This document shows positions 4,423 through 15,067 of a stretch of DNA of 64,000 nucleotides, piece by piece. The DNA comes from Sipunculus nudus (lineage: Eukaryota > Annelida > Sipuncula > Golfingiida > Sipunculidae), in assembly GCA_026874595.1 (NCBI GenBank), contig CM049307.1, positions 37,800,862 to 37,864,861 on the forward strand. The letters run 5' to 3'. The position numbers and the translations under genes are program-made. Position 1 is the first letter of the stretch, and each line of letters starts with the position of its first letter. The notes below the pieces were generated by a model, which saw nothing but the letters and a program-made list of their open reading frames with translations, searched no databases and had not been told where the DNA came from.

Positions 4423-4603
4423 CTTGGAGTCCTTTAGGATCGCCCGGTTGACTATCTGCTCGCCTCTTTTTTGTCTTTTTCTTCGCATGCGTTGCATAAT
4501 TATCACGAGCACTCCAGCCTGGATACAGCTGCATGTGCAATTCTTTTTCTTTCCGAGCCATCTCGTAGTATTTAGCTTGTTCTGACCTGTCTAAACTGTG
4601 CCA
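4423..4603 (-). CDS. TCF/LEF: TCF/LEF HMG box, second half, with basic tail
   Basis: The exon starts after TTTCTTTACAG with WHSLDRSEQAKYYEMARKEK, continues ELHMQLYPGWSARDNY, and so completes helix 2 and helix 3 of the HMG box. It then has a basic stretch AKKKTKKRR. In the family this tail is the nuclear localisation signal and bends DNA by binding the compressed groove. The exon is in phase 0 at its start and so joins GRK of either alternative first-half exon without change. It ends with one base (G) that completes Asp with the C-clamp exon. All helix 3 landmark residues (W, YYE, LHMQLYPGW) are conserved. The exon sits between the two arms of a 163-bp inverted repeat, so its inclusion could be affected by RNA folding. 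Confidence 0.98.
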
Positions 4604-12393: not shown

Positions 12394-12604
12394 CTTTCGA
12401 CCCAAAATTTGGTTTATTGCCGCTGATTCTTTTATGGAGGTTTCTGCCATAACCTGCGGCCTCATATCGCGCATAAACAGCATAAATGCGTTGAGGGGTT
12501 TTTTGATGTGGGACTTTTTCTTTGCTCGGGACTCTTCTTCTAAAGCGTTGTCGTGAAAGCTACCGTTTAGGGCTGTGTGCTCCAGTGCTGCGTTTGGCGT
12601 GTGC
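12394..12604 (-). CDS. TCF/LEF: TCF/LEF alternative HMG-box first-half exon A (downstream copy)
   Basis: This 211-base exon lies between TTCTCCTTTTAG and donor AAG/GTGAGT. In the frame set by the preceding exon (AG/G = Arg) it reads a 31-residue linker with an acidic-then-basic end ([11 protein letters not shown]). It then reads [29 protein letters not shown] and [11 protein letters not shown], which is helix 1 and the start of helix 2 of an HMG box. The hydrophobic wedge (AFML) and the [12 protein letters not shown] block are intact, so it should still bind DNA. It differs from exon B at 11 of 42 HMG positions, notably RDMRPQV for KEMRAKV. Its linker end (EEE..KKK.HIKK) is closer to vertebrate TCFs than exon B is. 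It is not a decayed copy: no stop, good splice sites, conserved core. Its use in mRNA is inferred from sequence only. Confidence 0.93.
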
Positions 12605-12640
12605 CTAAAAGGAGAACATCAAAAGGGGTTGGACGCTTAC
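12605..12640 (-). other. 36-base gap between alternative HMG exons
   Basis: The gap begins with exon B's donor (GTAAGC) and ends with exon A's acceptor (TCTCCTTTTAG). At 36 bases it is shorter than the usual lower limit for spliceosomal introns in most animals. The B donor and A acceptor are therefore expected to exclude each other by crowding. This is a known mechanism for mutually exclusive exons such as those of alpha-tropomyosin. Confidence 0.9.
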
Positions 12641-12821
12641 CTTTCGACCGAGAATCTGATTAATGGCTGCAGACTCTTTCAGAGTACACTCTTGCATCAC
12701 TTTGGCACGCATTTCTTTCATGAAAAGCATGAAGGCATTTAACGGTTTCTTTACGTAGGGCTTCTTCTGTTGGGGGCTTGGCGGTGTGCCGTTATGGCCC
12801 TTGGACTGTCCAGGCACTGGC
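12641..12821 (-). CDS. TCF/LEF: TCF/LEF alternative HMG-box first-half exon B (upstream copy)
   Basis: This 181-base exon lies between CTTGCAG and donor AAG/GTAAGC. It completes the same split Arg codon as exon A and ends at the same phase-0 GRK. It reads a short linker with Thr-Pro and Ser-Pro ([11 protein letters not shown]), then [31 protein letters not shown] and [11 protein letters not shown]. The helix 1 and 2 sequence is nearly that of vertebrate and fly TCF, so this looks like the ancestral copy. The TP and SP sites are of the kind that NLK and other proline-directed kinases phosphorylate just before the HMG box in vertebrate LEF1/TCF; exon A has none. Joining exon B to exon A would shift the frame. 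Confidence 0.97.
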
Positions 12822-14857
12822 CTGCAAGAGAATAGCACACAGTCACCCCATTTGGACTAGTGAAGTTCTCTGCATACTGAAGAGTTCGCCTCTACAATAA
12901 ACCCACGACCCCTCAGGATCACCCCTCTAGCCCCATGTTCCGGGGTGTTAAATGCCTCCACTGCCTAGCAACGTGTACAACTTCATCAGAAATCCACAGC
13001 CATTATACAGGTATTATTCAACATCATCAACACATACAGGCAGGGAATCCCCCACCTGTGACAATGTCCTCCGACAACACATACACCTGACCGGTGGTGC
13101 TGCACGGACAACAAACAACAGTACTGTTTACTTTGTATCTGTGCACTTTTCAAGTTCAAGAAGAGACTGGAAGAAATAAAACATGATAATCATTAACTTC
13201 ACAATGGAATACCTGCTAGTGGCTATCAGGCCTCAAAATTAACAATCACTGTCAAGGTGCAAGCCTAACAATCAGAATTAATCATACCAGAAAATTGGCA
13301 AAATATGACCTGAATGTAAAAAAAATACATTTCTCTCATTTCATTGCTCTTATAAAATTAATGTTGTTATTGGTTTACATTATAAAGTCAATTAAATGAT
13401 TTATTCTAAATATGACCAGCCAATTGAAGATGGTACCCACTGGCCCATAAGGCAAGCAAAAGCTGAATATGAGTGGTCATGGGGAATAAAGGTTTTGTTA
13501 ATTTCAAGGCCTGTCTTGAGATAAGAATTGCAAGCTGAGGATTCCTGAGGAGTCCACATTACAGGCAATGTACATTTCACTTATCATGATGAAAATGATA
13601 GTTATAACTTCATTACAAATGCTTATCAACATATGCAATCATACTTGGCTTCAATTACTACCACAGTGTATGAAGGCATGTATTGATAAAGGTTTCATAT
13701 TCCAGAGAACAAAGATGGCTCTGTTAAAGGCATGACCTCCATCAAGAATGCATGTCAGTTCAATTCATCAATAAGTCATTAAACTATTCATAATGTGACA
13801 TTACCTTTGTGTAGTTGTAAGAATAGCATAGTTACGCTGATACAAATGGACAAGACAACCCATTCATACTATCAACACAACAGTAACTGATACATTTCAT
13901 TCAACTATTCTCCCTGAAGAAAACGCAAACTGCTTGCTGTAATGATTTAAATGTACATATTATACAAAATGTGCAGAAGAAATTAAGATGTCTGTTGAAA
14001 CAAACCTCAGAGGATAATGGAGCAATTTTAGTGTACATAAGTGACATATAAAATCATAAAGGAACCTTAATTATTCAACAACAAAAAATACATTGAAGGA
14101 TTACAATGAGTAGCTTTAATACACATATTTTAATTATTCCCAAACAGCTAAAATTTATATTTTGTAAACACCAATTAAATCTTTCTTTGACATATGAAAA
14201 AACAATTCATGTAATTTTGGAATCCATTATATTTATTGTCTTTGCCATGAATATATTTTACAAAATTCTTTGTATGAAAACAAGTTAATTATTCTTGTAG
14301 ATATAGTTTGTATTTGGAACATCCTTAACCCTACAATTTCACTCAAAACAAAACTCTTTTTAAAGTTTTATTGATATAATAATTTCGTAAATCAGGGCTG
14401 TCAATTAAAACTGAATCATTTTTCAATGCAAAGACCTCATCTACAAGTTTACAGTACAGTCACTTTATCAAGTTCATGGCATCAACATCATGTTTACAGC
14501 ACAGCCACCACCTTATCCAGGTATATGCAAGGCCAAAAAAATAAAGGTATGGTTCTCAGGCACCACCTGCGTCAATTTAAAACACCCGCATTACATTTTT
14601 ATTATTTTGATTTTCATCTTTAAAAAAAAAAATAATACAATTTTGATAAGATTTTTCTTTGTTTTGTAGTGATTTTACCTGTTAACAGAAAATTTCTATT
14701 ATTATCATGCTTTTCCTTTATCATATGACATTTTTATTGAAACACAAAAAAAGGTAAAAAAAATGTGCCCACCCAAACTGATTTCTGACAAAGTCCCTGA
14801 AAACCATACCTTTTTTTTTTTGCCTAATATGTACAAATTAATAAAGTGTAAGCTCAC
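12822..14857 (-). other. Intron before the alternative HMG exons
   Basis: This 2036-base intron has donor CACAG/GTGAGC at 14858/14857. It shares its donor between the two alternative acceptors at 12822 and 12605. It is AT-rich with A- and T-runs near 14620-14820. I see no clear repeat or gene in it. Confidence 0.85.
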
Positions 14858-15067
14858 CTGTGATTATCTGAAGAGATGGGCGGATGTGATATGTCCTGCT
14901 TTGGTCCCGGAGTAACTATTGCTGGCTGGGGAATGCCGTGGTTAGGCATGCCGGGAGGATGAAAAAAGCTGGTGGGACTAAACCTGGCTAGCATACTGTT
15001 GGGTGGTAGCGCAGAAGGGTACGGACTTCTGAAACCAGCCCCGATCTGGTAACCGCCTGGTCCAGCC
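14858..15067 (-). CDS. TCF/LEF: TCF/LEF exon just upstream of the HMG box (GFRSPYPSALP)
   Basis: This 210-base exon reads AGPGGYQIGAGFRSPYPSAL then PPNSMLARFSP, HPPGMPNHGIPQPAIVTP and GPKQDISHPPISSDNH. It matches the family blocks GFRHPYPTALPVN..SMSRF and GIPHPAIVTP..KQE. It starts with the last base of a split Trp codon (TG/G) and ends with two bases of Arg (AG/G), completed equally by exon A or B. Vertebrate TCFs have VKQE here, a sumoylation motif. This protein has PKQD, lacking the usual large hydrophobic residue. The acceptor lies inside a three-copy tandem repeat that includes the splice site itself. Confidence 0.96.

Follow-up and report, generated by a model that had tools for sequence, protein, structure and literature searches.

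A probable pair of mutually exclusive exons for the first half of the HMG box in the apparently single TCF/LEF gene of Sipunculus nudus

An alternative exon within the DNA-binding domain of a transcription factor is known from the vertebrate gene FOXP1 (exon 18/18b), where the domain is a forkhead and not an HMG box, and alpha-tropomyosin and alpha-actinin possess pairs of exons that are mutually exclusive for steric reasons. The closest system described is found in the annelid Platynereis dumerilii, whose only Tcf gene has, according to cDNA and genomic DNA reported in 2018, a choice of two exons to begin the HMG domain (PMC5996498). There, PCR on cDNA from each variant to the C-clamp gave three products apiece, sequencing of a genomic fragment revealed the two exons (GenBank MG952773), an intron-retention isoform, X7, represented the TCF type without a C-clamp, and the isoforms were proposed to compensate for the possession of only one Tcf gene (PMC5996498). 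TCF7L2 likewise has two exons, XII and XII', for part of the DNA-binding region of a TCF, although their choice alters the C-clamp, whereas that described here for Sipunculus nudus alters the HMG box (PMC9303524). The author of the preliminary description of the S. nudus locus knew of no gene that chooses between HMG-box exons, a premise overtaken by the Platynereis case, which was already in print with both kinds of evidence (PMC5996498). Among the open-licence papers listed in our searches we noticed no further report of alternative HMG exons, and a search for the peptide KKPLNAFML found no paper.

The window that we analysed is a stretch of 64,000 nt (contig CM049307.1, positions 37,800,862 to 37,864,861, of assembly GCA_026874595.1), on whose minus strand lies the 3' portion of a TCF/LEF gene, including two tandem exons designated B and A; all exons below lie on that strand, and a slash marks an exon boundary. 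The reconstructed part begins with a common exon for the region before the HMG box (14858-15067), which has an open frame, the acceptor TTTTTACAG and the donor CAG/GTGAGC, and gives one match in the genome by protein search; its 3' end reads ...AATCACAG/GTGAGC, of which the AG opens a split Arg codon. Exon B (12641-12821; 181 nt; acceptor ...TTGCAG, donor AAG/GTAAGC) encodes a linker with the first half of the HMG box; beyond an intron of 36 nt (12605-12640) comes exon A (12394-12604; 211 nt; acceptor ...TTTTAG, donor AAG/GTGAGT), which encodes another linker and a diverged front half. Both complete the split Arg (AG/G), and both end with GRK in phase 0. Common to the two forms are an exon, with open frame and splice sites, that encodes the remaining half of the HMG box plus the basic tail (4423-4603; WHSLDRSEQ...KKKTKKRR), which is preceded by ...TTTACAG and opens with TGGCACAGT (WHS), a C-clamp exon (2652-2724) that joins in frame to 4423 and to 1022, and a last coding exon (647-1022) containing the rest of the C-clamp (RRKKKCIRF) and the C-terminus, with its TGA at 649-647. 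Exon ends are GT and AG throughout the reconstructed part of the gene. The frame of the B form stays open from the upstream exon to a last sense codon at 650, immediately before the TGA, and the A form was joined in frame through the exon at 4603, at which point it has the same phase as B. On re-reading the sequence, the coordinates, frames and splice sites claimed for A and B in the preliminary description were confirmed, as were the shared split codon and the phase-0 end before WHSLDRSEQ.

The gene is of the TCF/LEF type. The HMG-box profile PF00505 scores 75.3 bits against the box of the A isoform and 79.1 bits against that of the B isoform, and exons B and A each clear its cut-off separately; the best solved relative of the A-isoform box is LEF1 (2lef, E = 5.6e-40, with the runner-up at 1e-13), and a C-clamp follows the basic tail in frame, as in invertebrate TCFs. 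When the B-isoform box was searched at the protein level against the 1.43-Gb genome, eight matches were returned, of which three lie in the window (B, the second half, and A, the last at E = 1.3e-12 with 68% identity). The other five, all outside the window, are 29-33% identical, and we take them for other HMG boxes, leaving no TCF-type box outside the window among the eight; PF00505 itself has at least 27 matches in the genome. Hence, within the searchable sequence, from which some stretches are missing, this gene is apparently the sole TCF/LEF member, and two alternative HMG-half exons in a single-TCF genome, as first proposed, are supported by the genome search together with the constraint considered below. 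Exon A has one match in the genome at the DNA level, and the B-isoform box has no second copy, so there is no retrocopy by which a junction might be proved. Motifs of the beta-catenin-binding domain were found nowhere in the window, nor did the profile PF08347 match anything in the genome, although it was silent in controls too. Protein scans for a TCF relative produced 46 candidate stretches in bacterial and archaeal contigs and 17 candidates in viral contigs, none of which was confirmed, as expected of such collections.

A and B are neighbouring homologous internal exons of equal phase and similar length, without stops, and two features of their arrangement go beyond the preliminary description: the intron between them is just 36 nt, and every combination tried, other than exactly one exon, leads to a stop. 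The frame was kept only with B alone or with A alone. Skipping both exons ends the frame at ...DNHSGTV and a stop, joining B to A produces an early stop, and so does retention of the intron, whose last codon is an in-frame TAG. Mutually exclusive exons have been attributed to steric interference where donor and branch point are less than 50 bp apart (PMC5740500), and a donor-to-branch-point spacing of about 50 nt has been given as the steric limit (PMC7969005). No branch point inside an intron of 36 nt can reach that spacing; the 60 nt upstream of A contain the pattern yTnAy at -56, which is within exon B, and at -15. The arrangement resembles exons 4a and 4b of OGDH, which are also neighbouring alternatives whose donor and branch point lie too close for the exons to be joined (PMC7969005), and differs from them in that here the whole intervening intron is so short. 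Since both exons are constrained, the frame survives only with one of them and the intron is below the steric spacing, B and A are very probably a mutually exclusive pair.

Our main reading, to which we assign a probability of roughly 0.88, is that a mutually exclusive pair, derived from an old tandem duplication and kept apart by a steric block, gives rise to two TCF proteins. In each pre-mRNA the donor at 14858 would join either 12821 (B) or 12604 (A), after which the donor at 12641 (B) or 12394 (A) would join 4603, and both exons would be in use in S. nudus. Splicing of B to A would be prevented by the shortness of the intron between the B donor and any branch point for A, and mis-splicing that included both exons, neither exon or the intron would end in an early stop. 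The expected outcome is two TCFs that have the C-clamp and the second half of the HMG box in common, and that differ in their linkers and in the surfaces of helix 1 and the loop between helices 1 and 2.

Several other features of the locus were noted. Splicing-factor motifs around the pair showed no clear excess, the departures from expectation being small; CELF-type motifs, for example, number 2 against 0.4 expected in the upstream 300 nt. Two 18-nt segments, 12501-12518 in exon A and 12607-12624 in its polypyrimidine tract, are 78% complementary, and a hairpin hiding the acceptor of A was rejected, given that 134 of 200 shuffled sequences fold at least as well (z = 0.50). The intron upstream of the pair contains a 30-nt inverted repeat (14534-14563 with 14793-14822; 90% complementary, 229 nt between the arms). 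Read past its donor (4423-4409, minus strand), the second-half HMG exon gains GTVL and then a stop, which would yield a TCF without a C-clamp, a nearby stop of this kind being common by chance.

How the two boxes differ bears on what the choice might do. Over the 39 positions that could be aligned with LEF1 (letters from 2lef), B differs from LEF1 at eight, A differs from LEF1 at ten, and A and B differ from each other at ten. At these ten positions the LEF1 residue is that of B in five cases (14, 15, 18, 25 and 26), that of A in three (1, 2 and 22) and that of neither in two (19 and 24), while A and B share a difference from LEF1 at positions 12, 21 and 39. Hence B is nearer to LEF1 than A is, yet A need not stem from present-day B; most simply, B acquired its changes at positions 1, 2 and 22 after the two copies had separated. 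The proline of A at position 18 has counterparts in the alignments with SOX30 and with the HMGB1 box in 2gzk, and is thus compatible with the HMG fold. The residues identical in A and B presumably include the main DNA contacts, and helix limits as we take them to be place the differences on the surfaces of helix 1 and the helix 1-2 loop. Since box positions 3-13 and 27-39 are the same in A and B, a changed core recognition site is not implied, and the effect of the exchange would more likely be on affinity, partner binding or modification. The same identity, together with the unlike linkers, would suit an alternative that overlaps our main reading, namely that the pair is used and the choice leaves DNA binding unchanged, with A acting through its linker (by phosphorylation or partner binding) or lowering TCF output. 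We consider this possible, if rather doubtful; against it, 8 of the 11 differences across the HMG part lie at box positions 14-26, outside the linker.

The case for constraint rests on the pattern of divergence. Of the 42 residues of the HMG part, 11 are not the same in A and B, the figure reached in the preliminary description and confirmed by our alignment, and the same is true of 44 of 126 bases, while the linkers, as also claimed, are unlike by eye. Base differences in the 42 aligned codons are distributed 13/3/28 over codon positions 1/2/3, and at 20 of the 31 identical residues the codons are different. The value of dN is about 0.20 (NG86) or 0.23 (maximum likelihood), against a dS of about 3.1 by maximum likelihood and not computable by NG86. 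Neutral simulations run to an equal number of base differences retained on average only about 15-16 identical residues, and in each of six settings none of 5000 runs reached 31 or more. These simulations miss the observed identity, which argues that exon A is coding and has been under selection for most of its life, and constraint at the protein level is supported for both exons. With a branch that was neutral for part of its length, runs with at least 31 identical residues and no stop numbered 0 of 1000 where half of the mutation events were neutral, 1 of 1000 at a fraction of 0.3 and 11 of 1000 at 0.2; a recent loss of exon A use could not be seen by this approach.

The same results bear on the view that exon A is a relic, in other words a duplicate that has dropped out of use after once being spliced in. 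The greater distance of A from LEF1 (10 against 8 of 39 positions) is what such a history might produce, but the 31 of 42 residues kept, the absence of a stop across 71 codons and the intact splice sites do not fit a long neutral period. The donor of A is also the best of the three scored: among the 6993 GT sites of the window, a simple weight matrix places the donor of the upstream exon in the top 0.2%, that of B in the top 0.11% and that of A in the top 0.01%. We regard a relic as very improbable. Similarly small credence attaches to the view that exon A is part of another transcript, driven by a promoter of its own or preceded by different upstream exons, instead of being an alternative spliced into the main mRNA; the gene was reconstructed for its 3' part only, which leaves room for such a transcript, but A, like B, supplies the rest of the split Arg codon, both run in one phase into the sole TCF second-half exon that the search revealed, and the Platynereis variants were both joined to the same C-clamp (PMC5996498). 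Chance and artefact are rejected on the homology, the constraint and the 35% base divergence of the copies, a level too high for a duplicated piece of assembly or for alleles. The best explanation of A and B is that the 5' HMG exon of a single TCF gene was duplicated in tandem long ago.

How old the duplication might be is suggested by comparison with Platynereis, in which the pair occupies the same place, at the start of the HMG domain and with a common exon after it (PMC5996498). One of the Platynereis variant primers (PMC5996498) encodes DHTPNDS in frame 0, and exon A of S. nudus starts with RHTPNAA. The six frames of the window offer 127,996 positions, at just one of which HTPN appears, and a 4-mer common to the primer and the A linker arose in 21 of 20000 shuffles of that linker with the frame fixed, or in 156 of 20000 once any frame, either primer and either linker could count, the match being one of four residues that was seen by eye before testing, in a frame chosen by hand. 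The primer has no match in the window DNA at three or fewer mismatches, comparison of both primers with exons A and B at the DNA level gave nothing above background, and the residues of the second primer (DENEVQ) match neither the A nor the B linker. We see in this a weak hint that exon A is orthologous to one of the Platynereis variants. That two HMG exons are ancient in spiralians, the duplication predating the split from Platynereis and A being kept for hundreds of millions of years by single-TCF animals as a second, differently tuned half, is a conjecture to which we would give slightly less than an even chance.

If conserved, a choice of HMG halves would allow one gene to give two TCFs by splicing, where vertebrates have relied on gene duplication. 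The preliminary description had seen in this a single-TCF animal's partial substitute for paralogues, an idea already put forward for Platynereis (PMC5996498). The choice had previously been a side result for one annelid, and the S. nudus pair would be a second case of this published, little-noticed kind, with strong constraint, with an anatomy that may explain its built-in exclusivity and with a hint of deep ancestry. A second case raises the questions of how old the choice is and what role the second box has.

Some sequences in the assembly may be of other origins. Nine near-equal matches to cox1 were found on eight contigs (C60, C61, C62, C66, C72, C74, C75 and C89), and the one stretch examined is bacterial-looking, with approximately 38% GC; against bacterial and archaeal genomes its best relatives among the matches listed (at least 80) are 57-58% identical. 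These contigs may represent an undescribed bacterial lineage in the assembly, possibly a symbiont with several strains. Cytochrome oxidase and cytochrome b hits proved bacterial in those inspected, two by translation and the others by their contig and open frame, and no mitochondrial gene was recognised. Profiles for the annelid erythrocruorin linker (PF16915) and molluscan haemocyanin (PF14830) matched nothing and were silent in controls too, whereas hemerythrin gave three matches, on C118 and C128 and on none of the large contigs, and globin gave 14. A further bacterium-like contig of 53% GC carries an oxidase (C123:9253-10542) that by eye we take to be ccoN, and a COX1 match of 51 residues, containing one TGA and located on a large contig (C5:67852325-67852477), is perhaps a nuclear copy of mitochondrial DNA.
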